DNA of 64,000 nucleotides from Pseudomonas putida (lineage in GTDB: Bacteria; Pseudomonadota; Gammaproteobacteria; Pseudomonadales; Pseudomonadaceae), in NCBI RefSeq assembly GCF_026625125.1, contig NZ_CP113097.1, positions 5,797,052 through 5,861,051 of the forward strand, given 5' to 3'. Made by a program: the position numbers and the translations under genes. Under the pieces are notes generated by a model. The model was not told the origin of the DNA. It saw only the letters and a program-made list of their open reading frames with translations, and did no database searches. Every line of letters starts with the position of its first letter. Positions within the stretch are counted from its first letter, which is position 1. This document shows positions 19,724 through 34,714 of the stretch, piece by piece.

Positions 19724-19740
19724 GCATGTTCTAGAATGCC
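19724..19740. promoter_or_regulatory. TTCTAGAA palindrome upstream of the TetR gene
   Basis: The sequence GCATGTTCTAGAATGCC lies 39 bases before the TetR start, with the perfect core TTCTAGAA. It resembles the TAGAA/TTCT half-sites in the other promoters of module B and may be an autoregulatory site. Confidence 0.35.
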
Positions 19741-19778
19741 GGTAGCTATTCGCCGTTCGTGAGTAATCTGGAGACCCC

Positions 19779-20417
19779 ATGCCCATTTCCGTTGAATCAA
19801 ACGCTCCTCAGCAAGATCGCAGTCGCGCTTCACTTGAGCGTCTGATGTGGGCCACGAGGGAAATTCTTCAGGAAGGTACTTTCGAGCAGCTCACTATTGC
19901 AGGCATCAGCAAGCGCTCGAAGGTGTCGGTAGGCTCGATATATGCGCGTTTCAAAGGAAAGGACGAACTCTTCCTCGCGGTGATGATCGAGGTCATGAAG
20001 GAGATGGAGGTCGAGTGGTTCGACGAACTCGCCAAGCTGAAGAAACGCAACCTGTCCCTTGAGCGACTCGTGCCCGCACTGATCGAATCCCTGGCCGAAC
20101 ATCTGCGCAAACACGCCAGCATTCTAAAGCCGTTCATGACCAAAGCTAGCGACCCGCGAGTGGCCGCTTGTGGCAAAGCTACACACTTGAAAGCCGAGAA
20201 GTCGTTCTGCGACACAGTGCTTGCACTCAAGGATCAGATCACCCATCCCGAGCCTGAGCGTGCGGTAGGCATGAGTTTCGTCATCGCCTACTCCACGCTG
20301 GCCCGCTTTCTCGGCCTGGGGTCCGCTGCCGAAGCTGCTGGCGAAGGCAATTGGGCCTACCTCAAGACAGATCTTGGGCAAATGTGCCTGGGCTTTTTGC
20401 GCCAGCCGCGCGCCTGA
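19779..20417 (+). CDS. TetR-family transcriptional regulator
   Basis: A 212-residue repressor-type regulator. The N-terminal helix-turn-helix is visible in ATREILQEGTFEQLTIAGISKRSKVSVGSIYARFKGKDELF; the C-terminal part is all-helical and variable, as expected for a ligand-binding TetR domain. It ends 20 bases from the end of the convergent ten-gene catabolic run and is the only regulator in module B. It probably represses that run until the aglycone or an intermediate binds. Candidate operators are palindromes before this gene, before the alpha/beta hydrolase gene and between the monooxygenase and GH43 genes. Confidence 0.85.
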   Translation: MPISVESNAPQQDRSRASLERLMWATREILQEGTFEQLTIAGISKRSKVSVGSIYARFKGKDELFLAVMIEVMKEMEVEWFDELAKLKKRNLSLERLVPALIESLAEHLRKHASILKPFMTKASDPRVAACGKATHLKAEKSFCDTVLALKDQITHPEPERAVGMSFVIAYSTLARFLGLGSAAEAAGEGNWAYLKTDLGQMCLGFLRQPRA

Positions 20418-20436
20418 TGCCGTACAGGCATCAGCC

Positions 20437-21240
20437 TTACTGAGGCAGCAACGCAACGGCCCTTACAAAACCGGCGGAGGCGGCGCGGATCTTGTAAGGA
20501 AAGCAACTGACCCAGAACCCTTTGTCAGGCAGGCTTTCTAGGTTAGAAAGCTTTTCCATTTGCCCGTAACCGATATCTCGCCCGGCCTTGTGGCCTTCCC
20601 AGATTATCGAGGCATCGCGACTTTGAGCGAAACGTGCCCGAGTGTGGCTGAACGGCGCGTCCCAGCTCCAGGCATCGGTGCCCACCACCCTGACGCCCTG
20701 CTCGAGCAACCAGAGCGTGGCCTCACGGCCGATGCCTACGCCGGCCTCCAGATAGCCGGGCTGACCGAACAGCTGACCTGCCCGGGTGTTCACCAGCACG
20801 ATATCCAATGGCTGCAAGCGATGCCCGATGCGCTCCTGCTCGGCCTCAACCTCCTCTGCAGTGACCACGTGGCCGTCGGGCAGGTGGCGAAAGTCAAGCT
20901 TGATCCCGGGACGCAAGCACCACTCAAGCGGCAGCTCGTCGATACCGAAAGCCGGCCGCACTCCGGTTTCCAGAGCGTGATCAGTGGTGGACGCGTAATG
21001 CCATGGCGCATCCATATGCGTGCCGCTGTGGGTAGTGATCTGCAGACGCTCGGCCGCCCATGACTCATCCCCCGGCAGGTCGCCCTTGTTCAACCCTGGG
21101 AACATAGCGGCCATTTCCGGCCAGCCCTGTTGATGGTCCATATACTCAATGCGAGGAAGTAATGGCGGTGGGTCGGTATACGGGTTGTTGTCCAGCGTGA
21201 CGGAGATATCGATCATCCGGCACTTGCTCAAATCCATCAT
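20437..21240 (-). CDS. Cyclase-family metal-dependent hydrolase
   Basis: A 267-residue protein of the cyclase/kynurenine-formamidase superfamily (PF04199). The metal-binding signature HSGTHMDAPWH is at residues 71-81. Members hydrolyse amides, lactones or isatin-like rings with manganese or zinc. I choose the ATG at 21240 (MMDLSKCRMID), with CTGGAG seven bases upstream; the frame continues upstream without family character. It is the last gene of the leftward catabolic run, after the FAH-family gene, and probably opens a lactone or hydrolyses a late ring-cleavage product. Substrate unknown. Confidence 0.82.
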   Translation of the reverse strand: MMDLSKCRMIDISVTLDNNPYTDPPPLLPRIEYMDHQQGWPEMAAMFPGLNKGDLPGDESWAAERLQITTHSGTHMDAPWHYASTTDHALETGVRPAFGIDELPLEWCLRPGIKLDFRHLPDGHVVTAEEVEAEQERIGHRLQPLDIVLVNTRAGQLFGQPGYLEAGVGIGREATLWLLEQGVRVVGTDAWSWDAPFSHTRARFAQSRDASIIWEGHKAGRDIGYGQMEKLSNLESLPDKGFWVSCFPYKIRAASAGFVRAVALLPQ

Positions 21241-21308
21241 GGCGGGGCTCCAGTATTTAAGGCAGGCGGCCGCTTTACTGGCCGCGTGCGATAGTTTCGC
21301 GAACGCGA

Positions 21309-22295
21309 TCAGACGAGATGCCCGGGCGCGACTACCTGTTGGTCGATGGTGCCGAATGGCGCATTGCCAGAAGGGTCGACTGCCTCCATATATATGCGAT
21401 CGCCCCATTGCATGAAGCGAGTCAGTGGCATTCCAGCAATTTGATCCATGGCGCGACGCTCGGAAATGCAGGTACAACCAGTCTCTGCGTCGGGATTGGA
21501 GACGGTACCGGAACCGATCAACGCGCCAGCCCTTAACCGCCGCGTCAGTGCCGCGTGGGCAATTAGCTGCGAGAAACTGAAATGCATCTGGCTAGCACAT
21601 GGATGGCCGAACCACTGGCCGTTCCAGTGCACCTGAAGGCGCAGGTGGACACGTCCGTCAACCCAGCTACCTCCCAGTTCATCTGGGGTAATGGCTACCG
21701 GCGCAAAGCTGGTCGAGGGTTTGGCCTGTAGAAAGCCGAATCCAGTCTTCATCTCTCTTGGAGCAAGCGCCCTCAAACTGACATCGTTAAGCTGTAAGAG
21801 CAGTTTGATATGCCCGGCAGCGTCATCCGCGGAACACGCCATGGGCACGTCATCGAGCAGCACCGCGAACTCGCCCTCGAAATCGAGACCATGCTCTGGC
21901 TCTTTCAACTCGATGGGATCACGCGGCCCCAGAAAGTCATCGGAGCACCCCTGGTACATCAGCGGAATCCGTTCGACATCGGCAATCGGTGGCAGTTTGA
22001 ACGCCTGCTGCATCAGCTCGCCATGGTTGAGGAATGCCGACCCATCACACCACTGATAGGCCCGCGGCAATGGTGCCATGGCCTGCGCAGGGTCGAAGGC
22101 GAACGCCTCGGCCAGCTCCCCGCGTTCGAGAGCCTCGTAGCGCAACTGCAGAACAGGGGCCAGTTCATCCCAGTGCTCGATGAGCTGTTGCAGTGTCTTG
22201 GCGATGGGTAACGCCGGGATGGCGCGCGTGAGGTCACGCGACACCACCACCAAACGGCCGTCCCGACTACCGTCCTTGAGTGTCGCCAACTTCAT
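21309..22295 (-). CDS. Fumarylacetoacetate hydrolase family protein
   Basis: A 328-residue protein with FAH fold. The metal-binding acidic residues are in DFEGEFAVLLDD, and the C-terminal region LIGSGTVSNPDAETGCTCISERR corresponds to the conserved GTxxG/S segment. FAH proteins split C-C bonds of 1,3-diketo acids or decarboxylate and hydrate meta-cleavage products. The ATG shares one base with the stop of the dioxygenase gene (TGATG) and is preceded by GGAGG inside that gene, so the two are translationally coupled: ring opening followed by hydrolysis. Confidence 0.85.
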   Translation of the reverse strand: MKLATLKDGSRDGRLVVVSRDLTRAIPALPIAKTLQQLIEHWDELAPVLQLRYEALERGELAEAFAFDPAQAMAPLPRAYQWCDGSAFLNHGELMQQAFKLPPIADVERIPLMYQGCSDDFLGPRDPIELKEPEHGLDFEGEFAVLLDDVPMACSADDAAGHIKLLLQLNDVSLRALAPREMKTGFGFLQAKPSTSFAPVAITPDELGGSWVDGRVHLRLQVHWNGQWFGHPCASQMHFSFSQLIAHAALTRRLRAGALIGSGTVSNPDAETGCTCISERRAMDQIAGMPLTRFMQWGDRIYMEAVDPSGNAPFGTIDQQVVAPGHLV

Positions 22296-23260
22296 CAGTG
22301 CGCCTCCGATGTTCCGTCAGGTTTACCGACACCCGGAGGTGGTCCGCCGGGCGCCCATTTGGTCGCATGGGCAAACAGGAATATCTGGGAGCTATCGGCC
22401 CCTGGTGGGTACTCACGGGCGGACCACTGGTCATCGTGCAGGTCCATGTCGGCGTCGTACTCCACGTGGCAGCCCAGCGGGCTGTTGAAGTACCAGAACC
22501 AGTTAGAGCCCATATGATGACGGCCCGGCCCCCAAAATGAGCTGTAGCCTTTCTCGACAAAGCGGGTACCCGCCAACATGACTTCTGTCGGCCCGCCCAT
22601 ATGGAAGGTGAAATGCTCGATACCCTTGAGAAACGGTGGCGTCTGAATCAGGAACAGGGTGTGGTGATCCTGTGTACCGGCTGGCCGCAGGAACGGACCA
22701 ACGTGAGAGAAGCGGTCGGTACAGACGAAGCCCAGACGCTTGTAGAAGGCCTCGGCACGCGCATGATCGGGAACGAAATAGACCACGTGGGAAAGGCTGC
22801 GCGGCAACGCAGGGATGTCCGCGTGAACCCCCAGTTCATTGACCGGGCGATGAGGTTTGTCACCCGGTGCGTTGACCGCTTCGGCAGCCAGGACGATGGG
22901 CCGCCGGCAGCTGATCTGGAAACCCAGAGCGAAACCCATGTCATCTACGCAGCGCAGCACTCCATCGTCGCCCCACTGCACGGCACGGTCTTTTTTCATC
23001 TCAGTGGCGATCGCTTGCAAGTCCTTCTCGTCGGCCACGCCATACACGGTTTCGCGCAGCTGGGTAGCGGTTTCCATAGGTGCCGGCAGCCTTGCATCGT
23101 CACGCTTGCGCAGTACCACGCCGGTGCCATCCAGCGCCTCGAAACGGCCACCGGTTCCGTCGACGTCCACAGGCGTCAGGCCGTAATCGGTGAGATATCG
23201 AATGCAGGTATCGAGGTCGTCGACCCCAAAGACCAGATAATCGGGTCCGATGATATTCAT
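22295..23260 (-). CDS. Two-domain VOC-family (extradiol-type) dioxygenase
   Basis: A 321-residue protein with two vicinal-oxygen-chelate modules (about residues 3-118 and 155-275). The likely iron ligands of the second module are His158 (LSHVVYF), His216 (GIEHFTF) and Glu267 (CHVEYDADMD), with the spacing of 2,3-dihydroxybiphenyl-type enzymes. It should cleave a catechol-like ring next to the hydroxyls. It lies between a C-C hydrolase candidate and an FAH-family gene and downstream of a flavin monooxygenase that could make its catechol. The aromatic substrate is not identifiable from sequence. Confidence 0.82.
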   Translation of the reverse strand: MNIIGPDYLVFGVDDLDTCIRYLTDYGLTPVDVDGTGGRFEALDGTGVVLRKRDDARLPAPMETATQLRETVYGVADEKDLQAIATEMKKDRAVQWGDDGVLRCVDDMGFALGFQISCRRPIVLAAEAVNAPGDKPHRPVNELGVHADIPALPRSLSHVVYFVPDHARAEAFYKRLGFVCTDRFSHVGPFLRPAGTQDHHTLFLIQTPPFLKGIEHFTFHMGGPTEVMLAGTRFVEKGYSSFWGPGRHHMGSNWFWYFNSPLGCHVEYDADMDLHDDQWSAREYPPGADSSQIFLFAHATKWAPGGPPPGVGKPDGTSEAH

Positions 23261-23287: not shown

Positions 23288-24445
23288 TCAGGCAATACGT
23301 GCGCCGAGTACCTGGGCGACCCAGTCAGCGATGAAGTGCCCGGCGTTGATTGAGTTGTCGAAGCTCGAGTGCTGAACCCCGCCTTCACGCTCGGTGAAAA
23401 TCTTCAGTTCACGCCGAGGGCTGTTGACCAGTTGCTCGTAAGTCCGGTGCGCCCACTTGAGCGGAATCTGTGAGTCCTTTTCGCCATGGGTGACGAGAAA
23501 CGGCACACGAATGCGATCCAAGATGCCGTCCAGATGCACCTGTTCCGCGATCTTCATGAAGCTCTCGATATCATCGCCGCCCCATACCCAGCGCACGTGA
23601 TCCCAGTAATGAGGAACCGGGAAACTGCCCTCGCGCTCCAGGCGGCGACGCTGCACATCGCGCCAATCATGGTTGGCGCCCCACACCACGCCGCAGGCGA
23701 AGCGTGGCTCGAATGCCACCGCACGGGGGCAGTAGTAGCCGCCCAGGGAAACGCCTTCCATACCGATACGCTGGCTGTCGACATCCTCGCGGGTTTCCAG
23801 GTAATCCACGATCACACTGGCCCAATGTTCGGCGTCGTAACGTGCCTTGAGGCCATGTAGGCGCAAGGCTTCCCCCGTGCCGGGCTGATCGACCACCAAA
23901 GACGAAACACCTCGCCGCGCCAGCCACTGCGGCAGGCCTACGCGGTATTTGAGTTCCTTGCTCGAATCCAGGCCGTTGACCTGCACCAGAATGGGCGCGC
24001 GCCCGCTGACGCCTTCGGCCTGAACGTACAATGCGCTGAGCACCACGCCCTCATAAGGAATTTCTACTCGCTCGCAATTTTCTGCGGTCAACGCGATACC
24101 GCGAGCGAATACCTCCTGAAAGCGCTGATAAAGCGCGAGGCGCCCAGGTGCGCCATGACCCTGCAGGCGTTCGCAGGTCATGTAGTAAATGGCAGCACGG
24201 TTATACTTTTCACCGGCTGACAGCAAGCGTCCTGCCGCCTCATCCTCCACGGCCAACTCGCAGAGCTTGTCCGCCATGTCCGACCAGCTCTGGCGAAACG
24301 CTTGCACCCCGGTCGCGTCGGGCTTTCTGGACGCCTCCAGCAATGGGGCGCACATCTGTTGGATCTCGCCAATCCGGGCGCCCATTTCGATGGCCAGGTC
24401 GACCGCGAGATTCCACGGGTAGTTATCAGGGAAAAAGCGAAACAT
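23288..24445 (-). CDS. Alpha/beta hydrolase, pseudooxynicotine-hydrolase-like
   Basis: A 385-residue hydrolase with an N-terminal helical region of about 120 residues and a C-terminal alpha/beta fold, the layout of 2,6-dihydroxypseudooxynicotine hydrolase and FrsA-like proteins. The candidate triad is Ser233 (GVSLGG), Asp324 (GEKDSQIP) and His359 (GGVQHSS). The nicotine enzyme cuts a C-C bond beside a ketone on a dihydroxylated ring, so a similar carbon-carbon hydrolysis is plausible here. The ATG at 24445 has AAAGGA nine bases upstream; the longer frame to 24472 does not. A palindrome sits about 55 bases upstream. Confidence 0.8.
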   Translation of the reverse strand: MFRFFPDNYPWNLAVDLAIEMGARIGEIQQMCAPLLEASRKPDATGVQAFRQSWSDMADKLCELAVEDEAAGRLLSAGEKYNRAAIYYMTCERLQGHGAPGRLALYQRFQEVFARGIALTAENCERVEIPYEGVVLSALYVQAEGVSGRAPILVQVNGLDSSKELKYRVGLPQWLARRGVSSLVVDQPGTGEALRLHGLKARYDAEHWASVIVDYLETREDVDSQRIGMEGVSLGGYYCPRAVAFEPRFACGVVWGANHDWRDVQRRRLEREGSFPVPHYWDHVRWVWGGDDIESFMKIAEQVHLDGILDRIRVPFLVTHGEKDSQIPLKWAHRTYEQLVNSPRRELKIFTEREGGVQHSSFDNSINAGHFIADWVAQVLGARIA

Positions 24446-24500
24446 GGATAAAGGTCCTTTGACGGCAGCCAAAACAAAAGAAACAGTGAATCACATTTAT

Positions 24501-24520
24501 AGAACTAGTACTCTAGTTCT
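24501..24520. promoter_or_regulatory. 20-base palindrome upstream of the alpha/beta hydrolase gene
   Basis: AGAACTAG-TACT-CTAGTTCT is a perfect inverted repeat of eight-base arms. It overlaps the stop codon of the upstream MFS gene and is not followed by a T-tract in either direction, so it is more likely an operator than a terminator. Its ends resemble the palindromes at 32693-32714 and 32793-32814. Confidence 0.5.
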
Positions 24521-25721
24521 TTATAGGGTGCGCAAGCGCCTCAGGGTCAAATTCGACATGCTGGGTGGCCCACCAAGCGCACACCCCGCTTGCCAGCGCT
24601 CCGAGGGCCACGGCACAGGCCAAGCCCAGACCGCTACCAGCCAGCAGCGGTGCCAGCCACGCAGTGACGGCGGCGAATACCAGCGTCTGTTCGAATGAGA
24701 GCAACGAATTGGAGAGCCCGCGATGCTGTTGATAGCGCTCGGTCGCCATCAATATCAGGCACGGGTTGATCAGCGCCAACCCGAAGGTTGTCAGGCCCAA
24801 GGGCAAAACCAACCAGGGCAACACCGGCTCGAAGGCCAGCCAATAGCCGACATTGAGAAAGCTGGCGGCCAGCAGAATCGCGTACCCCAAACCCAATTGC
24901 CGGCAACGGGATAGCCGCCGAGCTAACCAGCCACAGAAAGCCGAACCGAGCACCATGCCAGCCACCAAGGGTACGAACAGCCAGCCGAATGCGGTCACCG
25001 GCAAGCCGAGTACGTCCATCACGAAGCTGGCGGAGGCACCGATGTAGAGCGAGAAAACAAAAAAGGCCAGTGCACCGGCGATCACCGGCAACTGGAACCC
25101 TGCGTCACTGCTCGTACGTAAATAGGAGAGCAGCAGCGGACGCATCCTCAGCACCTGGCGTAACTCCGTCGCTAGGCTTTCTGCCAGATAGCGATAACAG
25201 CAAACGAACAGCAGCGCTGCGAAAGCGGCCTGGAAAATAAAGATAGAGCGCCAGCCAAACGACTCCAGTATCCAGCCTCCCAGTATGGGAGCGAGCGCCG
25301 GAGCCAAGGCGAAAACCATGATCAGTTGCGACATTGCTCGCTGAGTATCGACGCCGCGGGTCATATCCAGCACCACGGCGCGTGCAACGACTCCTCCGGC
25401 ACCGGCACTCAGGCCTTGTAAGGCACGCCACGCCAGCAGGCCTTCATGACTCGCCGCTAGCGCTACGCCCAGCGCCGCAAGGGCGTGGATGGCAGTCGCC
25501 CATAGCAGCACAACTCGACGGCCGAAAACATCTGAAAGCGTGCCGTAGAACAGCATCATGATGGCCAGGCACGCCAGGTAAAGCCCCAGCGTTTGCTGGA
25601 TCACCAAACGCGATACCTGAAGTTCGGCGCTCATTGCCCCGAAGGCGGGAAGGTACATGTCGATGCCCAATGGCCCGAGAATGGATAACCCGCCCAGTAG
25701 GACAATTATTGACACCTTCAT
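24513..25721 (-). CDS. MFS transporter, Bcr/CflA (DHA1) type
   Basis: A 402-residue twelve-helix transporter. The opening LGGLSILGPLGIDMYLPAFGAMSAEL is the hallmark of the Bcr/CflA subfamily, with GTLSDVFGRRVVLL in loop 2-3 and RALQGLSAGAGGVVARAVVLDM after it. This subfamily usually exports drugs or metabolites by proton antiport. In this gene run it may expel a toxic aglycone or sugar product. The ATG at 25721 has GGGAG six bases before it. It lies between the porin and the hydrolase genes on the same strand. Confidence 0.85.
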   Translation of the reverse strand: MKVSIIVLLGGLSILGPLGIDMYLPAFGAMSAELQVSRLVIQQTLGLYLACLAIMMLFYGTLSDVFGRRVVLLWATAIHALAALGVALAASHEGLLAWRALQGLSAGAGGVVARAVVLDMTRGVDTQRAMSQLIMVFALAPALAPILGGWILESFGWRSIFIFQAAFAALLFVCCYRYLAESLATELRQVLRMRPLLLSYLRTSSDAGFQLPVIAGALAFFVFSLYIGASASFVMDVLGLPVTAFGWLFVPLVAGMVLGSAFCGWLARRLSRCRQLGLGYAILLAASFLNVGYWLAFEPVLPWLVLPLGLTTFGLALINPCLILMATERYQQHRGLSNSLLSFEQTLVFAAVTAWLAPLLAGSGLGLACAVALGALASGVCAWWATQHVEFDPEALAHPIKN

Positions 25722-25748
25722 GCATCTCTCCCTCATGGGTAAGCAGGA

Positions 25749-27101
25749 TCAGAACGAGAAATTCAGACCGCTCTGGTAGATCAGGGCGTCATCCAGTGCT
25801 GGCGCGAACGATGGTCCCTCCTGGTAAGTCAGGCCGTTAACCCAATAGATGCCTCGGCTCAGTCGCGCTGCGTACGACAAGGACAGTGCCGTGGACGTAC
25901 GTTCGGCATCGCCGCCACTGCGCTCGACGTTATTGTGCGCATAGGTGCTGAAATAGTTGCGGGTGAAGCCCAGGGACACCATGTCGCGCTGCCGGCTATC
26001 GAAGGGACCGATATAGAACGCCGTCAGCTGGAAGTCCTTGTTGTACAAGTTGCGATCTTCCGGGGCGTAGTTGACCTTCGCATCCAGATACAGACCGCGA
26101 GGGCCAGAGCCGTTGGGCTGTGTGACCTGCTTGGTGACGGCCGCATAGGCACCATAGTTGTTGTTGGTCATGCCGCCATTGCGGTAATCGGTGTACTTGC
26201 TGGTGTTATGGATAGCCCCGACGCGAGCCCAGAACGCTTTCTGATCCTGGCCCGCGTTGACCTTGTAGCCAAACTCATCGACCACCACAGCGCGTGATCC
26301 CTTGACCTTGAACTCGAAGCCTGAGGGGTTTTCGTCGAGGTCATACTGGAAGCGATTCGGGCTGGCGCTACGCGCGACGGTGGCGCGGTTGTACCAGCGT
26401 TTGCTCTGATCCTTGACGGTAACGGTTACCGCAGGGCTTGGCGTGAATAGCGATAAACCCACCTGAACAGGAATGACACTGGCTGGGCCGAGCGCCGCCG
26501 CCGACGAGTTGCCACCCAACACCATGCCGTAGTATTCGCGGATTAGGTTGTAGTAGCCGTACTGGAGCTCCAGTTGGCCGTCATAGAAACGCTGGTTAAC
26601 AGCGAAGCTGGACATGGTCAGGAAGTTCGGGTTACCCGTTCGGTAGCTACCCGATTCCCAGGTAGCCCCTAAAACAAACTGGGCATCCCCGCCCCACCCC
26701 ACACGGGTCAGATCGTAGGTGAGCTTCAACGCAGTGGACTGGCGATACGTCGGGTTCTGCCCGTTGTAGCTCTGCGTAGAGGAGTTATTGCCCAGCAGAT
26801 CATAGCGGTAATTGGGACTGAAAGCGGCAGCAAAGCCGAAACCGTTATCGGCCAGCGCCGCGCGCAGACCGAATAACTCCGGCGAGATGGTTTCGCAAGG
26901 CGGAGTTTGCGAAAGCACTGCCTCGGTTCTAACCACATAACGCTGGTAACGCTCGCATTGGCTGGCGGCAGCCGGCATGGCACTTTGTGGGGTGCCTGGG
27001 GCAACGCCGGCATTCGTATCTGTGGCTGTTGGGGGGGCAGCAAAAACCAGGGGGGCGGTACTCAAGGCGACAAGGGCACAGACTGTTTTCATCGATTGCA
27101 T
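25749..27101 (-). CDS. Outer-membrane porin, carbohydrate/substrate-specific
   Basis: A 450-residue beta-barrel protein with a signal peptide (MQSMKTVCALVALSTAPLVFA). The mature protein starts with a proline/alanine-rich stretch and SQCERYQRYVVRTEAVLSQTPPC, then alternates aromatic beta-strands to the terminal LIYQSGLNFSF, the C-terminal phenylalanine signal for outer-membrane assembly. It resembles OprB-like porins, but the exact family is uncertain. The ATG at 27101 is chosen because it opens the signal peptide. It probably admits the glycoside or its sugar. Confidence 0.75.
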   Translation of the reverse strand: MQSMKTVCALVALSTAPLVFAAPPTATDTNAGVAPGTPQSAMPAAASQCERYQRYVVRTEAVLSQTPPCETISPELFGLRAALADNGFGFAAAFSPNYRYDLLGNNSSTQSYNGQNPTYRQSTALKLTYDLTRVGWGGDAQFVLGATWESGSYRTGNPNFLTMSSFAVNQRFYDGQLELQYGYYNLIREYYGMVLGGNSSAAALGPASVIPVQVGLSLFTPSPAVTVTVKDQSKRWYNRATVARSASPNRFQYDLDENPSGFEFKVKGSRAVVVDEFGYKVNAGQDQKAFWARVGAIHNTSKYTDYRNGGMTNNNYGAYAAVTKQVTQPNGSGPRGLYLDAKVNYAPEDRNLYNKDFQLTAFYIGPFDSRQRDMVSLGFTRNYFSTYAHNNVERSGGDAERTSTALSLSYAARLSRGIYWVNGLTYQEGPSFAPALDDALIYQSGLNFSF

Positions 27102-27203
27102 TTTTATTATTTCCATCACGCTGTTTATCGGCGAACGGGTTTCATCGAGACGCAACCACCCACCACGCCTCATGCGAGGCGCAGAAGATTTGGTATTCAG
27201 CAT

Positions 27204-28421
27204 TCAGTTGATAAGAGGGTGACGAGCAGTTATGCGCCGTATAGCCAGCAAGCCAGTGACGACCAGTGCGGCCAGCGCTACATAGCCCATGATCAACACC
27301 GCAGGCGCCAAGCCACCGGCTGGTCTGCCAACCAAGGTGACCAGAAAGGGGCTTACGAACTGGCCAATGAAGAAGGCAGCCGTCCAAAGGCCCACACCAC
27401 GGCCGCGGTGCTCAAAGCTCAGGCCACTCAGGCACCAGTTGATCAGCGCAGGAATCAGTAACCCGCAGCCAACCTGAGCGATAAAGGCGGACAAGACGGC
27501 AAGCTTCACCTCGACAGCCAGCCCCAGTCCGACCAGCCCGACACTGAACAGCAGGAACACGATGCCTAGCTGTAGACGAATGTCGCGCTTGGAAAGCCAG
27601 GCGAAGACCAGCGCGCCGAGCGGCACCCCCATGTTCGCCAACCCGCTGGCCAGGCCGAGCTTAGAGGAGTCGTGCAGCCCGATGCCATGCAGTATCTGAC
27701 TGATCTGCAGCACCTCGACGTAGTAAAGCGTCGCTGCGAGCAGCGTGACCCCGACCACCAAAACCATTCGGCCCATCGGGAACGGCGCACCGCTCGGATC
27801 ACCCGCCTCTTGCTGCTGTCGACCTGGCTCCCAGGTCCAGAACAGCAGGCCAAGGAAAATCGGGAAAGCCAGCAGGTACAGCAGGAAGGGCCCCTGCCAG
27901 CCTATTTCGCCGAGCAGGCCACCGCTGAACATCAGCACGGCGCCCGAAACAGAGCCCACCCCACTCTGCACTGCCAGCCATTTGCGACGTGGCCCCGGTT
28001 CATAGAAATCGCCAAGGAGGGTATTGGCAACTGTCATGATCACCGCTTCTGTAACGCCAAGCATGAAGCGGCTGGCAACGATACTGACCAGGTCATCCAT
28101 GAAGTACGGCGCAAAGCCGAATACGCCGTAAAATAACACTGCAACCAGCAGTAACCGCCGCCGACCGAAGCGGTCGGCCAGAATGCCAGCCAATGGCGAC
28201 AATAGAGCAATGCATGCACTCGGCGCGGTAATTAGCAAGGGCACCAGAAAGTGCGCATCACGATGGCTGGAAAACTGCTGCGCCAGCAACGGGATGATGG
28301 GGATCAGGGAAAGCAATCCCATGATCGGAAGCTGAGTAGTGAACACCAAAATCAGTGCTTGTGCAGCTCCTGCCTTGCGCGGCACAGGCAGGTTCCCTAC
28401 CGAGGTGGTGGCGTTGGACAT
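27204..28421 (-). CDS. MFS transporter
   Basis: A 405-residue inner-membrane permease of twelve predicted helices. The loop 2-3 motif GILADRFGRRRLLLVA is clear; the region RFMLGVTEAVIMTVANTLLGDFYEPGPRRKWLAVQSG is typical of MFS transporters. Subfamily not recognised. An N-terminal cytoplasmic stretch of about 20 residues precedes helix 1. It lies between the porin and GH3 genes, so uptake of the glycoside or a disaccharide is the simplest role. Confidence 0.83.
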   Translation of the reverse strand: MSNATTSVGNLPVPRKAGAAQALILVFTTQLPIMGLLSLIPIIPLLAQQFSSHRDAHFLVPLLITAPSACIALLSPLAGILADRFGRRRLLLVAVLFYGVFGFAPYFMDDLVSIVASRFMLGVTEAVIMTVANTLLGDFYEPGPRRKWLAVQSGVGSVSGAVLMFSGGLLGEIGWQGPFLLYLLAFPIFLGLLFWTWEPGRQQQEAGDPSGAPFPMGRMVLVVGVTLLAATLYYVEVLQISQILHGIGLHDSSKLGLASGLANMGVPLGALVFAWLSKRDIRLQLGIVFLLFSVGLVGLGLAVEVKLAVLSAFIAQVGCGLLIPALINWCLSGLSFEHRGRGVGLWTAAFFIGQFVSPFLVTLVGRPAGGLAPAVLIMGYVALAALVVTGLLAIRRITARHPLIN

Positions 28422-28491: not shown

Positions 28492-30939
28492 TCAAATGAA
28501 GCGAATATCTCCCCCCTCACTCACCTCCAGTGCAACTGAAATAATGGCGTCGTCGAGCGCATGGCCAATCATCAGGTGGTACCTTCCGGGCACGATCAGG
28601 CTGGCACCTGCATCGCTGCTCCAGCGTGAAAATGCGTCGCGCCCCAGCGCCAGACGCACAGACTGCTGCTCATCAGGTTGCAAGTGGACAGCGGCAAATG
28701 CTTTGAGCGAGGTACGCGTAGGTTCCGCAGACTGCTGGGGTTCAACCACATAGAGCTGTATCACTTCCTTGCCCTTGCGCGAGGCCAGGTTGCGTATGAC
28801 GAGCTCTACCTGCAGGGCGTCGACGGTACTACCGGTCAATCCCGCCAGCGAGCAGGCAAAGCGGGCGTAGCCCATGCCGTACCCGAAGCTAAAGGCAGGG
28901 GAGACATCACGGGCACTGAAGCTGCGGTAACCGACCCACCATCCTTCGTGATAGGTCAGGTCGCCATTTTCCGAGGGTGCCAAGGACCAGACGGGGTAGT
29001 CGCTTTCCTGCCTGGCAAACGTCACAGGCAGACGCCCACCTGGCTCGCGGTCCCCCTTCAGCACGCTGGACAGCGCCGGGCCGAACTCCTGGCCGGGATA
29101 CCAGGCCACCAAGATGGCGGCGGCATCCTGCATGCAGGTCATGTCGACCGGGTGGGCGACATTGAGCACCACCACCACGCGACGATTGACCTCACACACA
29201 CGGCGGATGAGTTCGATTTGCCCGGCAGGCAGCAACGTGGATTCACGGTCTACACTTTCCAGCCCCGCATCAGGCGTCTCGCCGACCAAAAGTACAACCT
29301 CGTCGGCACGACTTGCGAGGGCGACTGCCTCGTCCAGCAAGTTGTTCTGGGCGGGTTGACGGCAGCCAAACCACAAGCCATGGGCCAGGCTGCGGCCTAC
29401 CTGCATGCTAACTCGCAGCTGTACGGTCTGGCCCTGTTCCAACCGGCAGGCAAATTCATCATGGGGCGCCTGCATGAGCTTGCCCATGATGTCACCTTCG
29501 ACGGCCCGACCGTCGAAGGCGCCCAGCGGGTGTCCATTGAGATACAGCTCGGCAGCACCTGTGCCCCCGAGCAAGAAGGTGTATTCACCGCTACGCGACG
29601 CAACGAAAGACGTCGAGACTTCAACCCGCCCTTCACCCTCAAGGGACAGCAATTCTCCCACGCCTGGCATTTGCTTGAACCATATGAGCGAACTCGAATA
29701 ACGCACTTCTTGGGATGCAACAATGCCCTGTGTACTGTAGTAATCCACAGCCATGCCCGGCTCGCCGGCTGGCGTGACTAGTGACAATGCGCTCAACGGA
29801 GGAATGCGGTGCTCGACGGGCGCACCTTCGGCATGCGCCACCGTATAACCGGCAGTGGAGAACTGCTCCTGCAGGGCTTGCAAGGGCGTGGTGGTATCCG
29901 GTGCCAGCGCGACCTTGGCGAAGGTGCCGCCCTGATAGCATGGCACGGTGGCGTTAGGGCCGATCACAGCCAGCAAACCCGGCTTGGCCGAGCCGTAGGG
30001 TAGGACCTGCGACTCATTGCGCAGCAGCACCATGCCGGCTGCCGCTGCCTCTTCCAGCACCGCGAGACGCTGGGCCTGCTTATCCGCCTGCCAGGTTCGC
30101 GCCGGGTTAGTGCGCCGAGCCAGTCGCAACAAACGCTCCACGGCATCATCGAGACGTGCGAAATCCACAGCGCTAGCCTGCTCGTTACCCAGCAACGCGT
30201 TGCCCAGGACTCGCCCTGGCCCTGGCATCTCTAGATCGAGTCCATTGTTGAGACTCGCCGCACCGTCATGGGTGCCAAACCAGTCCGACATCACCAATCC
30301 GTCCCAGTGCAGCTCCCGTTTGAGCCAGTCAAGCAACAGCTGGCCATGTTCGGCACATCGCACGCCATTGACCTTGTTGTAACCGGTCAACATAGCCCAC
30401 GCACCGGACCTGGCAGCATGTTCGAAGGGCTTGAAATACACGTCACGCAGAGCCTCCTGCGCAACGACGGCATTCATGTTGCGTCGGTCGGTTTCCGAGT
30501 CGTTACAAACCAGATGCTTAATCACGGATGCGACACCCCGGCTCTGTACGCCCTGCGCCCACGCCCAACCCAGTTCGGCGATCAGTTGCGGATCTTCACC
30601 GAACAGCTCGAACGCACGGCCGGCCAAGGGGCTGCGCATCAGGTTAAGATTGGGCGCCAATACGGCCTGCACACCGATACGCTGCGCTTCATCACCGACC
30701 ACCTGACCGACGCGAGTTACCAGTTCGGCATCCCAACTGGCTGCCAGGGCAAGCCCACACGGCGTTAACAGTGCGACATCGCGCTCATCGACCCGTCCGC
30801 CCGTCAAACCCATCGGTCCATCAGCCATGCGGACGGAGGCAAGCCCGAGCTCATCTCGTTCGCAGGTCGACCACATGTCCCGGCCAGCAGTTAGTAGCGC
30901 CTTCTGCTCTAAAGGCAAAGTGTGGACCTCGTTACGCAT
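28492..30939 (-). CDS. Glycoside hydrolase family 3 beta-glycosidase
   Basis: An 815-residue GH3 enzyme, probably cytoplasmic because no signal peptide is seen. The N-terminal barrel has the KH pair (VIKHLVCND, about 141) and the nucleophile Asp219 in GLVMSDWFGTHDGA; a PA14-like insert (about 400-530) lies in the second domain; a fibronectin-III-like domain ends the protein. This is the layout of beta-glucosidases such as BglX/KmBglI relatives acting on aryl or disaccharide glycosides. ATG 30939 is preferred over 30945 because GGAAG then has a proper spacing. It overlaps the flavin reductase stop by eight bases, tying sugar removal to aglycone oxidation. Confidence 0.9.
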   Translation of the reverse strand: MRNEVHTLPLEQKALLTAGRDMWSTCERDELGLASVRMADGPMGLTGGRVDERDVALLTPCGLALAASWDAELVTRVGQVVGDEAQRIGVQAVLAPNLNLMRSPLAGRAFELFGEDPQLIAELGWAWAQGVQSRGVASVIKHLVCNDSETDRRNMNAVVAQEALRDVYFKPFEHAARSGAWAMLTGYNKVNGVRCAEHGQLLLDWLKRELHWDGLVMSDWFGTHDGAASLNNGLDLEMPGPGRVLGNALLGNEQASAVDFARLDDAVERLLRLARRTNPARTWQADKQAQRLAVLEEAAAAGMVLLRNESQVLPYGSAKPGLLAVIGPNATVPCYQGGTFAKVALAPDTTTPLQALQEQFSTAGYTVAHAEGAPVEHRIPPLSALSLVTPAGEPGMAVDYYSTQGIVASQEVRYSSSLIWFKQMPGVGELLSLEGEGRVEVSTSFVASRSGEYTFLLGGTGAAELYLNGHPLGAFDGRAVEGDIMGKLMQAPHDEFACRLEQGQTVQLRVSMQVGRSLAHGLWFGCRQPAQNNLLDEAVALASRADEVVLLVGETPDAGLESVDRESTLLPAGQIELIRRVCEVNRRVVVVLNVAHPVDMTCMQDAAAILVAWYPGQEFGPALSSVLKGDREPGGRLPVTFARQESDYPVWSLAPSENGDLTYHEGWWVGYRSFSARDVSPAFSFGYGMGYARFACSLAGLTGSTVDALQVELVIRNLASRKGKEVIQLYVVEPQQSAEPTRTSLKAFAAVHLQPDEQQSVRLALGRDAFSRWSSDAGASLIVPGRYHLMIGHALDDAIISVALEVSEGGDIRFI

Positions 30940-31561
30940 AGTCATCTTCCGGCACGCAGGCTACGAACGGCGCGGGCGCCATCATGGCCTGGCTAGCCAG
31001 GGTATCCAGCGTGCCCTGCACCTGGGCATCCAGACAGTGACCGTGTTCATCGAACAGCGAAACACCAGCAGTATTGAGCGTCACACCGAGCGGCGTCGGC
31101 CAGCCACGCATGGCATGCACAATCGAACGCAACGCGCCCAGCGTGGTGTTGCAGCCCTGCCAGCCGGCGGCGGTAACAATGCAGCCAACCGCACGGCCGT
31201 CGAAGTAGATGCGGGTATCGCTGCGCAGGTCCTCGAGCAAATCCAAAGCGTTCTTGACTAAGCCCGATACGCCGCCGTGGTAGCCGGGCGTGGCGATGAT
31301 GATGCCGTCCGCCTGACGTACCGCTTCCACCAGTGCGAGTTGCTCGGCGGTACGCTCGCTAGCTTCTGGGTTGAAGGCCGGCAGCGCTGCCAGCTCGCGG
31401 CCGCCGAACAATTGGGTACGCGCTCCGCGTAACCGCGCGCGATACAGCGCCGCGGCCAGGGCTTTTTCGGTACTGGATCCATGTCGCGTAGTGCCGCCGA
31501 TACCGACTATCAGAGGGGCTTTGCCAGGATTTGCCGGCTTGAGGATAGGGGGCTGCTGCAT
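30932..31561 (-). CDS. NADPH-dependent FMN reductase
   Basis: A 209-residue flavodoxin-like reductase. The FMN-binding region is seen in GIGGTTRHGSSTEKAL (phosphate loop) and ATPGYHGGVSGLVKNALDLLED, the hallmark of PF03358. It lies 20 bases downstream of a luciferase-like monooxygenase and most probably supplies it with reduced flavin as a two-component system. The ATG at 31561 has GGAG nine bases upstream. Related SsuE/MsuE-type reductases pair with alkanesulfonate monooxygenases, but no sulfonate genes occur here. Confidence 0.87.
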   Translation of the reverse strand: MQQPPILKPANPGKAPLIVGIGGTTRHGSSTEKALAAALYRARLRGARTQLFGGRELAALPAFNPEASERTAEQLALVEAVRQADGIIIATPGYHGGVSGLVKNALDLLEDLRSDTRIYFDGRAVGCIVTAAGWQGCNTTLGALRSIVHAMRGWPTPLGVTLNTAGVSLFDEHGHCLDAQVQGTLDTLASQAMMAPAPFVACVPEDDYA

Positions 31562-31581
31562 GAGTGAGCTCTCCACAACGA

Positions 31582-32676
31582 TCACTGGAAACGAGGCATG
31601 ACTTCGCGAGCGAACAGGCTCATCGATTGCTCGCTCAGACGGGCACGCTCAGGCGTCATAGGCCCGTTGGTAAAGCCCATGAGCACGTTGCCGATACCCA
31701 GCTCACGATGTTTATCCAGCTCGGCGGCGACGGTATCGGGACTGCCATGCAAGCACCAGGTCTTGATCCATTCGCGGCTGAAGCAATCCGGGTGCGGGTG
31801 CAACTGTACGCCGCTCAGCTTCTCGGCACGCTTGTTGAAGCCGTGCTCACGCTGAATCGCACGGTTGTAGGCGGCGAGGATCTGCTGCAGCTCTTCCTCG
31901 GCCTGCTCATCGGTTGGCGCCACGTGAACGCACTGATAGGTGTGCGTCGTCCAGGACAGGCAGTGATCAACCACTTGCTGCGAGTGGCCAGCTCCCAAAA
32001 GTGCTTGCTTGTAGCGATTGAAATACATGGACAGATGCTCGAAAGGCTCGGCACTGGCAGGCACAGGTGGCGTGAAGGCTGGGATAAAGGCCGGGCAGCC
32101 CATCTCGGCGGCACGCTGCATGCTGCTTTCGCGCAGAGCAACCGGCATCAACCGGTTAAACGGGCGCTGATAGGCGGTAGGCACGATGCGTTGCACCACG
32201 GCGCCTTTGTAATGGCTGGTTTCGAAGCTGATTGGCTCATCTTCGATTTCCTTGTTCCACAGGCGCAGAACCAGATCAAGATTCTCCTGCAGTATCGCGG
32301 ATGCTTCTTTGTAGTTGACGCCAAAACCGATCATTTCTTCCGGCGTGGTGCCACTGCCGATGCCGACCAGCAGCCGTCCTTCGGTTAACTGATCAAGCAG
32401 GTTCACGCGCTCAGCGAAGCGGACCGGGTGGTGTAACGGCACCGTAGTGACCGACATGCCGAAATGGATGCGCTTGAGCTGGCCGGCCAGATAGGCGGCG
32501 AACACAAACGGATCACTGGACATCGGTGCATAGCCAGTGAAGTGATGATCAGGCATGAACACAGCATCAAAACCCAGGGCCTCGGCCTGCTTGGCGTGCT
32601 CGACAAGCGCATCCATGACCGGCTTGTCTTCATGAGGGCCAGTGGAACGGCCGACGAGAAATACTGAAAAGCGCAT
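31582..32676 (-). CDS. Luciferase-like (LLM class) flavin-dependent monooxygenase
   Basis: A 364-residue TIM-barrel flavoprotein of the bacterial luciferase superfamily, with GFDAVFMPDHHFTGY near the N-terminus, IHFGMSVTTVPLHHPVRFAE and EGRLLVGIGSGTTPEEMIGFG. Members use FMNH2 from a separate reductase, here encoded directly downstream. It is the first gene of the leftward run and starts after AAAGGAC. In this context it most likely hydroxylates or oxidatively opens the aglycone before the VOC dioxygenase acts. LLM enzymes vary widely, so the reaction is inference. Confidence 0.87.
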   Translation of the reverse strand: MRFSVFLVGRSTGPHEDKPVMDALVEHAKQAEALGFDAVFMPDHHFTGYAPMSSDPFVFAAYLAGQLKRIHFGMSVTTVPLHHPVRFAERVNLLDQLTEGRLLVGIGSGTTPEEMIGFGVNYKEASAILQENLDLVLRLWNKEIEDEPISFETSHYKGAVVQRIVPTAYQRPFNRLMPVALRESSMQRAAEMGCPAFIPAFTPPVPASAEPFEHLSMYFNRYKQALLGAGHSQQVVDHCLSWTTHTYQCVHVAPTDEQAEEELQQILAAYNRAIQREHGFNKRAEKLSGVQLHPHPDCFSREWIKTWCLHGSPDTVAAELDKHRELGIGNVLMGFTNGPMTPERARLSEQSMSLFAREVMPRFQ

Positions 32677-32692
32677 ATGCCTGTCCTTTTAT

Positions 32693-32714
32693 TAGAATGT
32701 GAATTCTTGTTCTA
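32693..32714. promoter_or_regulatory. TAGAA-N12-TTCTA inverted repeat before the monooxygenase gene
   Basis: Arms TAGAA and TTCTA are separated by twelve bases that include GAATTC. The same arm spacing occurs in the palindrome at 24500-24520 (TAGAA-N12-TTCT). It is 16 bases upstream of the start codon, overlapping the expected promoter, and so is a good repressor position. Confidence 0.45.
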
Positions 32715-32792
32715 TTTAATGAACAAATAGTGCCGTTCATTCGCAACCTTGTGAAGCCGCGGCACCCGCAGGCCGACACGAGAGCTAGACAC

Positions 32793-32814
32793 AAATAGAA
32801 TCTAAGTTCTATTT
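32793..32814. promoter_or_regulatory. Perfect 8+6+8 inverted repeat in the divergent promoter
   Basis: AAATAGAA-TCTAAG-TTCTATTT is a perfect inverted repeat in the middle of the divergent spacer, well placed to control both transcripts. No T-tract or coding context suggests a terminator. Candidate operator for the TetR protein of module B. Confidence 0.5.
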
Positions 32815-33064
32815 TCAAGCTATCACCGCCCTCCTTCTCCGTCAACACCGAAAATTCGCCCTATCGTACTGGCCGCCTCGTAAACCAAATCGAGCAGATA
32901 GCTCTGTGCGGCCGTTACAGCGGCTACGTGAGAGCCAACGAAATCGCCGGGTTGAGAGGAGGAAAATTAGATTTTACATTCTGGAATGAAGGTTCTATTT
33001 TCTACAGGCCCACGGCAACCTCCTTGGGTGTGCGGCCACAAAAAAATAAGATAGGAGCTTTTCT

Positions 33065-34714
33065 ATGCCATCGAGACGAGACCTGCTAGGCATGGCGGCC
33101 ATTAGTGCAGTAATGGCAACCACCACCTCTTTAAGCCATGCGAGCAGCCCAAGCGAGCGCCCTGCCGCCCCCACTTCTACGCCTTCGCCAACTCGTTATC
33201 GTTGGGCAGCCGGCATCGAAGGCCAGAGAAAGGCGGATCTTGGAAACGGGACGTACCTCAACCCTATCCTACCTGGTGACTACCCAGACCCGACGGTGCT
33301 CAAGGACGGTGACGATTACTACATCACCCATTCATCCTTCGATGCGTCCCCTGGGCTACTGATATGGCACTCGCGGGACCTGGTTAACTGGACGCCGCTT
33401 ACTACTGCGCTTGACCAGCCGTTGGGAACGGTTTTCGCCTGCGACCTGATCAAGCACGAAAACCGCTATTACATCTACATTCCGTTCCTCAAAGCCAAAT
33501 GGTCCACCAAGCTCGAGAAACCGGTGAGCATCTGGGTGATCCATGCCGAGAACATGGCTGGCCCATGGAGCGAACCTGTCGACCTGAACATCAGCGGCCT
33601 CATCGATCCCGGTCATATCGTTTGCGAAGACGGCGAACGGTATCTTTTCCTGTCCGGCATAAACCGTGTCAAGTTGACACCAGACGGGCTCTCTACGGTT
33701 GGCAAGGTCGAGAAGGTCTATGACGGATGGCGCTACCCGGCAGAATGGGTGACCGAGGCTTACGCGTTGGAAGGCCCCAAACTGATCAAGCGGGGTGGCT
33801 GGCTCTATATGATCACCGCAGTCGGCGGAACAAGCGGTCCGGCAACAGGCCATATGGTGATCTGTGCGCGCTCCAAAACGGTCAACGGCCCTTGGGAAAA
33901 CTGCCCTGACAACCCAATCGTGCGCACGTATTCAGATTCAGAGCGATGGTGGTCACGTGGCCATGCCACTGCAATCGAAGGACCAGATGGCTCGTGGTAT
34001 CTGATCTATCACGGCTATGAAAACGGCTTGAGAACCCTTGGCCGCCAGACCCTGATGGAGCCAATTACCTGGACATCCGACGGTTGGCCCAAAGCCTTGG
34101 GCGGCGATCTCAGCAAACCACTCCCCATGAGCAAGCAGCCCTCCGCAGCCCCCAAGCACGGCATGGCCCGCTCCGACAATTTTTCCCAGCCAGCCTTCGG
34201 AACACGATGGGCTTTCTTCGGTGGTCCCAATGAGCTCAGACGTGCCGAGTTCAAAGGCAACGCCCTGCGACTGGCCGGCCAAGGTACGAGCCCGCAAGAC
34301 TCTGCGCCGCTGACGCAAATGGTGGGCGACCCCAACTATGAGATCAGTGTGCATATCGACGTGATCGGCGACGCCACGGCGGGGTTGTTACTTTTCTTCA
34401 CCGATCGACTATTCCTTGGGATAGGGATCGACGGCGAACGCATGACCACCTATCGCGGAGGGGCTAGGAGCCACTGGCCCGAACCCGCTCCCGCCACCCG
34501 TTCTCTGTGGCTGAAGCTCGTCAACCTGCACAACATCGTGACCTTCTACTACTGCGAGGACGGCAAGTCATGGGTCAAGCATGGCGTGCGCAGCGAAGTG
34601 TCCGGCTACAACTCCAATACCGTTGAATACCTGGCCAGCCTTCGACCCGCACTGTTTTGCGCGGGAAAAGGGTGTGCCGAATTCCGGGAGTTTCGCTACA
34701 AAGCGATTCCATAG
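33065..34714 (+). CDS. Exported glycoside hydrolase family 43 protein
   Basis: A 549-residue protein starting MPSRRDLLGMAAISAVMATT, a twin-arginine signal, so it folds in the cytoplasm and is exported. The five-bladed propeller domain begins NPILPGDYPDPTVLKDGDDYY, where Asp75 is the likely base, and EGPKLIKRGGWLYMITA carries the catalytic glutamate. A beta-sandwich of about 190 residues forms the C-terminus. GH43 enzymes are arabinofuranosidases, xylosidases or arabinanases. It is divergent from the monooxygenase run and probably trims an outer pentose of the plant glycoside before uptake; the later GH3 enzyme would remove the inner sugar. Confidence 0.87.
   Translation: MPSRRDLLGMAAISAVMATTTSLSHASSPSERPAAPTSTPSPTRYRWAAGIEGQRKADLGNGTYLNPILPGDYPDPTVLKDGDDYYITHSSFDASPGLLIWHSRDLVNWTPLTTALDQPLGTVFACDLIKHENRYYIYIPFLKAKWSTKLEKPVSIWVIHAENMAGPWSEPVDLNISGLIDPGHIVCEDGERYLFLSGINRVKLTPDGLSTVGKVEKVYDGWRYPAEWVTEAYALEGPKLIKRGGWLYMITAVGGTSGPATGHMVICARSKTVNGPWENCPDNPIVRTYSDSERWWSRGHATAIEGPDGSWYLIYHGYENGLRTLGRQTLMEPITWTSDGWPKALGGDLSKPLPMSKQPSAAPKHGMARSDNFSQPAFGTRWAFFGGPNELRRAEFKGNALRLAGQGTSPQDSAPLTQMVGDPNYEISVHIDVIGDATAGLLLFFTDRLFLGIGIDGERMTTYRGGARSHWPEPAPATRSLWLKLVNLHNIVTFYYCEDGKSWVKHGVRSEVSGYNSNTVEYLASLRPALFCAGKGCAEFREFRYKAIP

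Follow-up and report, generated by a model that had tools for sequence, protein, structure and literature searches.

A putative TetR-controlled regulon for breakdown of a glycosylated plant phenolic, probably flavonoid-type, on a Tn7-like transposon of Pseudomonas putida

In a 64,000-bp stretch of Pseudomonas putida DNA (the window), we identified twelve genes that are carried by a Tn7-like transposon and probably make up one catabolic regulon under TetR control. Its substrate would be a glycosylated plant phenolic, most likely an O-glycoside of the flavonoid type. Judged from sequence comparison, the unusual part of this locus is the entry module with a luciferase-like monooxygenase (LLM), not the ring-cleavage half. 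The genes with which soil bacteria attack glycosylated flavonoids are, to our knowledge, poorly mapped, and the present locus brings deglycosylation, an unusual oxygenase and ring cleavage together in one predicted regulon.

All twelve genes, within 19724..34714, are intact as open reading frames with named families (Pfam matches), and the arrangement given in an earlier note on this DNA, ten leftward genes between a convergent TetR and a divergent GH43, was found in full:

19779-20417, plus strand: TetR regulator (PF00440), convergent
20437-21240, minus strand: cyclase-family hydrolase (PF04199; corresponds to FdeG in gene order; preferred start ATG 21240)
21309-22295, minus strand: FAH-family hydrolase (PF01557 and PF18288; FdeI by gene order)
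22295-23260, minus strand: extradiol VOC dioxygenase, FdeC/IfcB-like (PF00903; predicted Fe ligands H158, H216 and E267)
23288-24445, minus strand: alpha/beta-hydrolase of the 2,6-dihydroxypseudooxynicotine (DHPON) C-C hydrolase type (PF00326; corresponds to FdeB in gene order; preferred start ATG 24445)
24513-25736, minus strand: MFS transporter (PF07690), Bcr/CflA-like, under the cut-off of that family
25749-27203, minus strand: OprB-type outer-membrane porin (PF04966)
27204-28421, minus strand: the other MFS transporter (PF07690)
28492-30945, minus strand: GH3 glycosidase (PF00933/PF01915/PF14310)
30932-31585, minus strand: FMN reductase (PF03358)
31582-32676, minus strand: LLM (PF00296)
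33065-34714, plus strand: GH43, beta-xylosidase/alpha-L-arabinofuranosidase-like, likely exported (PF04616 and PF17851)

The spacing is as tight as had been noticed: base 22295 is common to the FAH and VOC reading frames, the GH3 start (ATG 30945 or 30939) contains the end of the FMN reductase frame at 30932 (overlap 30932-30939), and the FMN reductase and LLM frames overlap at 31582-31585. The expected iron ligands of the VOC enzyme, which presumably correspond to those of BphC, are invariant in an alignment of 20 sequences. The SDW at residue 220 of GH3 likely holds the nucleophile, and a twin-arginine-like SRRDLLG, spotted by eye at the N-terminus of GH43, makes export likely. Among the locus proteins that were compared with NCBIfam nothing scored above cut-off, the extradiol-dioxygenase matches of the VOC enzyme all falling below.

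For the substrate class, the order of steps and the compartments, we infer the following scheme. GH43 would remove an outer pentose outside the cytoplasm, the glycoside would be imported by the porin and the MFS carriers, and GH3 would free the aglycone. Oxygen insertion by LLM and its FMN reductase would leave the A-ring with a pair of adjacent hydroxyls, after which the FdeC-like VOC enzyme would open the ring by extradiol (meta) cleavage, and the product would be cut by the alpha/beta-hydrolase, FAH and cyclase proteins. The flavonoid-like nature of the substrate is predicted with good confidence, while the supply of the VOC substrate by LLM is slightly favoured. The LLM reaction may be ring hydroxylation, a Baeyer-Villiger-type attack or another step; phenol hydroxylation is rare among characterised LLMs.

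The ring-cleavage half was assigned by comparison with the fde-type loci of Herbaspirillum frisingense and H. huttiense, H. seropedicae itself not being among those compared. By sequence the VOC, alpha/beta-hydrolase, FAH and cyclase genes are fde-type homologues, that is, the flavonoid A-ring meta-cleavage half that is already known, with identities to the H. frisingense locus of 74% (VOC), 78% (alpha/beta-hydrolase), 55% (FAH) and 61% (cyclase); the latter locus also carries LysR, Phenol_MetA, Rieske-like and FAD genes, as an fde locus should. In a survey of VOC loci (80 kept of 439 found), the alpha/beta-hydrolase gene was present in all 80 and directly upstream on the same strand in 76, the cyclase in 67 and FAH in 63; in our locus, too, the DHPON-type hydrolase adjoins VOC. 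According to the parts of the source covered, fdeC works on the naringenin A-ring, ifcB is its homologue, and disruption of the DHPON-like hydrolase gene in the Variovorax ifc cluster left daidzein degradation unaffected (PMC11069340).

The earlier proposal of a glycoside-to-ring-cleavage locus, in which flavonoids were among the listed substrates, is in part supported, and the closeness in sequence of the four homologues to fde-type loci makes it rather improbable that the substrate is instead a stilbene, coumarin, lignan, xanthone or other aryl glycoside. Such a substrate would be in line with the broad ranges of extradiol enzymes and LLMs, and the locus sets no constraint on a B-ring. The C-deglycosidase family, moreover, takes in enzymes from a carminic-acid-metabolising bacterium (PMC8563793, in the parts covered). 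The description of the locus as self-contained was too strong: no relatives of the FAD monooxygenase (FdeE/IfcA type), LysR, Rieske and cupin proteins were detected within the 64-kb window at E<=1e-3, and a second fde-type locus, at about 2.44 Mb in this genome, contains relatives of all four (FAD monooxygenase at 2.4415 Mb).

The place of the FAD monooxygenase in fde-type loci is occupied here by LLM, FMN reductase, GH3 and TetR. Versions of this module, some of them incomplete, range from Pseudomonas to Streptomyces and Deinococcus; the neighbouring decoration removers differ between loci (GH43, sulfatases, an esterase and C-glycoside deglycosidases). Among 398 Pseudomonas genomes, our own included, LLM, FMN reductase and GH3 occur together in all six that carry LLM; an FdeC-like VOC is present in 6/6 of these against 70/398 overall, and the FAD enzyme in 5/6 against 60/398, counts that ignore kinship. 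A TetR relative lies close to most LLM genes examined, 7 of the 10 plasmid records include an FMN reductase, and a class-wide LLM search (274 genomes) gave a match in our own genome only. No VOC gene was seen within the 8-12 kb examined at the Streptomyces LLM-GH3 loci.

Scattered genes elsewhere would have spoken against the earlier reading; instead, the same ten-gene order with the convergent TetR is present on a plasmid of Pseudomonas CIP-10, and almost all of these genes recur in strain BP8, whose examined stretch showed no second MFS, and in LB-090624, where they are divided between two contig ends. The earlier remark that no described pathway has this set does not hold for the ring-cleavage half, fde and ifc being known. 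No description of an LLM-GH3 module was found in the literature searched (titles and abstract openings, most subscription journals lying outside).

As to the role of LLM, five VOC proteins encoded next to LLM form one clade in the VOC tree (support 99/95), and the LLM-adjacent VOC of genome G134 sits outside it in the FAD-linked group. In G134 LLM and the FAD monooxygenase are both in one locus, and in G161 and G342 LLM lies apart from VOC, so LLM may do a job other than that of FdeE. Under one alternative the LLM pair would act on the glycoside or its decoration, by sugar oxidation or by a methoxy or C-ring step, and leave the A-ring alone, the FAD enzyme encoded at 2.44 Mb supplying VOC with its o-diol. 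The near-constant company of GH3, the frequent decoration-removing enzymes and the FAD enzyme in most LLM genomes, once in the same locus, would suggest this. We regard this as somewhat unlikely, as LLM and VOC are kept in BP8 without an FAD enzyme at E<=1e-15 and in LB-090624, where no FAD-enzyme match exceeds 31% identity. The G134 locus ruled out the simple view that LLM replaces the FAD enzyme in all genomes.

Our protein has the LLM fold, with 22-26% identity to the structures of luciferase, diketocamphane monooxygenase and RslO1. A type II Baeyer-Villiger-like attack on an aryl ketone (the flavonoid C4 or dihydrochalcone carbonyl) would give an ester or lactone whose hydrolysis leaves an A-ring o-diol to be cleaved by VOC. 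We consider this unlikely: LLM folds are all alike, the top structure matches are near-tied and the fold does not reveal the reaction.

Coordinated control is suggested by an operator-like dyad, TAGAACnnnnATTCTA, for which the motif was trained on six other loci. The five best sites in the window (motif scan) all lie in the LLM, GH43 and alpha/beta-hydrolase promoters:

24497-24518, minus strand: upstream of alpha/beta-hydrolase
32690-32711 and 32793-32814, no strand assigned: upstream of LLM
32965-32986 and 32979-33000, no strand assigned: overlapping pair upstream of GH43

One of 20 random-sequence controls held a site scoring 22.8, and the reversed pattern, used as a control when matches were counted over the whole genome, also matched once. 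In 4 of the 12 loci checked (L150, L151, L152 and L154), no dyad (<=2 mismatches) was detected up to 500 bp from the LLM start. Binding of the dyad by the TetR protein of the locus is likely.

Because the best operator-like sites include its promoter, GH43 probably belongs to the same regulon. None of the other Pseudomonas LLM loci examined showed a GH43, and two Novosphingobium LLM loci carry GH43s 63% and 67% identical to ours; the shared motif together with these two loci ruled out GH43 as an unrelated neighbour. C-glycoside deglycosidase (CGD) genes are near LLM in 2 of the 6 Pseudomonas LLM genomes and 5 of the 10 plasmid records, a further pointer to flavonoids. No relative of the CGD alpha/beta subunits (G134 queries) was detected within the window at E<=1e-3, and the lack of a CGD gene in the window, the CIP-10 stretch and two Streptomyces stretches ruled out LLM as an enzyme of C-glycosides only.

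By its ends and genes, the whole catabolic locus is cargo of a Tn7-like transposon downstream of glmS, a status that the earlier note had missed:

17957-17961 (left) and 43118-43122 (right): target-site duplication ACGAT
17962-43117: Tn7-like transposon, 25,156 bp (terminal repeats, 5-bp duplication, TnsD/TniQ/AAA genes)
17971 and 18083, weaker at 18030 (span 17971-18099), plus strand: left-end repeats GAATTAAAACTGTCGCG
18177-18980, minus strand: GNAT acetyltransferase, passenger gene
19123-19575, plus strand: reading frame without convincing family, by eye resembling a transposase remnant
35150-36508, minus strand: TnsC-like AAA ATPase (AAA_22 at 27.6 bits, cut-off 27; position)
36505-38514, minus strand: putative TnsB-like transposase (Pseudomonas homologues named 'transposase' or hypothetical; no Pfam match at 1e-3)
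38511-39476, minus strand: candidate TnsA-like gene, named solely from its position (no Pfam match)
40117-41754, plus strand: TnsD/TniQ target selector (TnsD 98 against a cut-off of 32)
41782-42696, minus strand: second TniQ-family protein, just above cut-off
43071-43087 and 43091-43107, minus strand: right-end repeats
43141-44976, minus strand: the gene that we take to be glmS, its 3' end flanking the insertion site

The repeat GAATTAAAACTGTCGCG has 4 matches in the window against 0.11 expected. The outermost bases on the left, GGTTTTAG, do not match those on the right, TAGATTTAG, and our left boundary could therefore be wrong by one base. No empty insertion site was found among the relatives examined by lpd and glmS positions: in G215 (same species) about 2 kb, including an end remnant, separates the two markers, which are about 14-88 kb apart in G005, G007, G011, G015, G016, G019, G020 and G021 (both matched well, on one contig) and 1.75 Mb apart in G008. 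The cargo of Tn7-like elements is commonly mixed, and with the GNAT gene and the remnant frame also aboard one might suppose a chance pile-up of unrelated genes; the ten-gene order repeated on a plasmid, the operator-like sites in common and the clade of five VOC proteins make this highly improbable.

The gene families, the four-gene fde homology, the linkage, the operator-like motif and the transposon can be read from the DNA itself; they present a predicted pathway for a plant compound as cargo of both a transposon and a plasmid. LLM becomes a candidate non-FAD alternative to flavonoid 8-hydroxylase, and the dyad motif a means to find some such loci. Tentatively, and with less than even confidence, we propose that TetR, LLM, FMN reductase and GH3 might form an undescribed cross-phylum core for breakdown of glycosylated flavonoids, coupled to various decoration removers (GH43, sulfatases, esterases, C-deglycosidases), in which an LLM attack unlike that of FdeE or quercetinase, possibly Baeyer-Villiger-like, makes the A-ring cleavable, and that Tn7-like transposons and conjugative plasmids might spread this core among root bacteria.

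Among known systems, the fde operon for naringenin degradation in H. seropedicae SmR1 (PMC10799723, PMC8552027, PMC11303751, PMC11069340, each as far as covered) resembles our locus in VOC, DHPON-type hydrolase, cyclase and FAH, whereas our window lacks the FAD monooxygenase, Rieske, cupin and LysR genes and has TetR, LLM/FMN reductase, GH3 and GH43, on a transposon. The ifc cluster for isoflavone catabolism in Variovorax V35 shares the FdeC-like IfcB and the DHPON-type hydrolase, but its IfcA is an FAD monooxygenase, inactive on isoflavone glycosides, and LLM, GH3 and GH43 are not named in the parts of that paper covered (PMC11069340). Relatives of the LLM module are often near the alpha/beta genes of CGD loci such as DgpABC and CarABC, which our window lacks; the word 'monooxygenase' is absent from the main text of that source (PMC8563793). 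Our transposon differs from known Tn7 and Tn7-like elements at glmS in its catabolic plant-glycoside cargo and second TniQ gene. A TnsABC-like run with putative TnsA and TnsB members, TnsD/TniQ, the site just downstream of glmS, the repeated end sites and the 5-bp duplication, all characteristic of Tn7 and its relatives, are shared. Finally, the two-component LLM monooxygenases luciferase, diketocamphane monooxygenase and RslO1 have the LLM fold and a separate FMN reductase in common with our enzyme, which is set apart from them by its recurrent partnership with GH3 and TetR.

The earlier note had described a catabolic locus of twelve genes in the window, which is the final 64 kb of a complete single-contig genome of 5.86 Mb, and all twelve were found to be open, in the order and on the strands claimed. 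GH43 is divergent from, and TetR convergent to, a ten-gene leftward run, which lies as follows.

17962-43117: 25,156-bp Tn7-like transposon downstream of glmS
32676, leftward: origin of the run, in the order luciferase-like monooxygenase (LLM), FMN reductase, GH3, MFS, OprB porin, MFS, alpha/beta-hydrolase, extradiol dioxygenase (VOC), FAH and cyclase
24445, leftward: preferred ATG of the hydrolase
21240, leftward: preferred ATG of the cyclase

Both preferred starts match the relatives better than the longest open reading frames. An inverted repeat between GH43 and tnsC (35071-35131; 30-nt arms, 90% complementary) is a candidate terminator or element remnant.

The two ends of the 25,156-bp stretch share a 17-bp repeat, for which 4 matches were counted where 0.11 would be expected. 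ACGAT flanks the stretch on both sides, and the two ends differ in their outermost bases. The interior carries genes for an AAA ATPase, a transposase homologue, TnsD and TniQ, with glmS lying outside, and the nearest named relatives of TnsB, as of VOC and LLM, are from Pseudomonas. Similar right-end repeats were recognized by eye beside glmS, at the same place, in several relatives (for instance loci L101, L160, L161 and L167). The distance between lpd and glmS is about 2 kb in the same-species genome G215 as against 36 kb in our genome. Taken together, the transposon ends and genes and this difference in the lpd-glmS gap indicate that the catabolic locus is accessory cargo of a Tn7-like element. 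By eye, a left-end-like sequence was also seen directly after lpd (around 7320-7345), opening a stretch (7308-17961) with genes for OprD, a DHDPS-like protein, MFS, two-component-like proteins, IclR and scoAB; this stretch may represent the left portion of an older Tn7-like element that used the identical site.

LLM was detected in 6 of 398 Pseudomonas genomes, our own included, and was not found in G215, the sole other genome of the same species in this set. FMN reductase and GH3 adjoin LLM in all six. The GH3 gene of G086 (treated here as M47T1) is split over two reading frames (L096:4776-7174), a candidate frameshift or sequencing error. A TetR relative is near LLM in five of the six, in G081 (treated here as LB-090624) on the other contig end, and was not seen in the G086 stretch around LLM. 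VOC (E<=1e-100) is present in 70 of the 398 genomes and in all six with LLM (hypergeometric 2.5e-5, kinship ignored), and the FAD enzyme in 60 and in five of the six, respectively (3.6e-4, kinship ignored). LB-090624 has no FAD-enzyme relative above 31% identity, and none was found in BP8 at E<=1e-15, the identical query being matched in 6 of 7 genomes.

At about 2.437-2.454 Mb, our genome carries another fde-type locus that is more complete, with genes for hydrolase, LysR, VOC, Rieske, FAD, RND-like, MFS-like, cupin, FAH, SDR and cyclase proteins; its VOC is 64% identical to that of the window. In the VOC tree, the LLM-adjacent enzymes of the window, LB-090624, CIP-10, BP8 and M47T1 form one group (support 99/95), and a distant group holds those of G134, G342, G161, the 2.44-Mb locus and a second locus of G086. 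The G134 enzyme is also LLM-adjacent, yet belongs to the distant group. Because LLM-adjacent VOCs thus sit in two groups, LLM and VOC may have been brought together more than once.

LLM (E<=1e-60) was identified on 10 of 72,556 plasmid records, and comparison of all ten regions revealed a TetR relative in every one, FMN reductase in seven and GH3 in nine, the sole exception, where GH3 was not found, being Novosphingobium PP1Y. The Pseudomonas CIP-10 plasmid carries the identical ten-gene order plus TetR; galactonate-pathway genes adjoin the operon there (L148:24664-29626), which may point to a galactoside or a similar sugar. GH43 is present, at 63 or 67% identity, in two of the ten regions (Novosphingobium), and both alpha and beta subunits of C-glycoside deglycosidase (CGD) in five, of which two are strains of one species and PP1Y shows merely 30-31% identity. 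In G134, Pfam and solved-structure searches supported CGD genes, together with a pyranose-oxidase-like gene that lies about 13 kb away from LLM, and G342 carries genes matching this neighbourhood by clustering. CGD genes were also noted near LLM relatives across several phyla (L097, L099, L149, L151, L153, L156 and L157). Which decoration-removing genes adjoin LLM varies from locus to locus. The LLM neighbours in G081 include a carboxylesterase, and next to the BP8 operon are three sulfatases and a sulfatase-activating enzyme (L008:23-8697), hinting at sulfated substrates.

Operator-like dyads upstream of several LLM genes have TAGAACnnnnATTCTA in common. Without mismatches, this pattern was present in 14 of 157 fetched loci. 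Every one of these is an LLM locus or a stretch linked to LLM, and several are copies of a single place that overlap one another. Using a matrix trained on six sites, all from outside our genome, the five best sites in the 64-kb window (32793, 24497, 32979, 32690 and 32965) fell in the LLM, hydrolase and GH43 promoters. As a control, 20 Markov sequences of the window's length were scored: 3 of them held one site that reached or exceeded the window's fifth-best value, and their highest score was 22.8, compared with 30.8 for the top window site. With up to two mismatches the window gave 12 matches (palindromes counted twice) against 1.68 expected, a number reached in 0 of 100 shuffles. In the whole genome the flanked dyad with up to one mismatch gave a single match, at LLM, and the reversed control also gave one. 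Allowing up to two mismatches, 8 of 12 LLM loci have a dyad no more than 500 bp from the start of LLM; none was found at that distance in L150, L151, L152 and L154. A weak site precedes tetR (19715). We infer that TetR binds the dyad.

In the proposed pathway, GH43 would take off an outer pentose, after which uptake would follow and GH3 would release the inner sugar; LLM with its reductase would then oxygenate the aglycone, VOC would open the A-ring by extradiol cleavage, and the alpha/beta-hydrolase, FAH and cyclase would carry out hydrolysis. The structure model of LLM (pLDDT 84.9) is nearest to RslO1 and luciferases. Since a type II Baeyer-Villiger enzyme also ranks high among its structural matches, LLM may work by a Baeyer-Villiger route.

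The VOC search gave 2969 relatives (E<=0.001), and neighbourhoods were analyzed for the best 80 of at least 439 related places in named genomes. Among these best 80, the hydrolase gene is present in all, directly upstream on the same strand in 76, FAH in 63 and cyclase in 67, and LLM in two (BP8 and M47T1), the stretches being limited to 10 kb or cut short by the end of a contig, as happened for LB-090624. By simple gene calling, in which misses are likely, the FAD monooxygenase family was called in 73 of the 80 and its short Rieske-like member in 39, and neither was found in five (L004, L008, L015, L027 and L051). According to excerpts of the published reports, FdeE serves as the FAD enzyme and FdeD as the Rieske carrier when naringenin is hydroxylated at C8 (PMC8552027), the A-ring being hydroxylated by fdeE and dioxygenated by fdeC (PMC11069340), and the fde operon is controlled by the LysR-type FdeR, adjoining fdeA (PMC10799723). 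The isoflavone cluster ifc includes a gene for a DHPON-like hydrolase as well as ifcB, which shares 65.8% identity with fdeC (PMC11069340); the best solved relative by sequence of our hydrolase is the DHPON hydrolase 2jbw. The Herbaspirillum frisingense locus is arranged in the order LysR-like, Phenol_MetA, hydrolase, VOC, Rieske-like, FAD, transporter-like (judged by eye), cyclase, cupin-like, FAH and SDR-like. With letters assigned by gene order, the hydrolase would correspond to FdeB, the cyclase to FdeG and FAH to FdeI.
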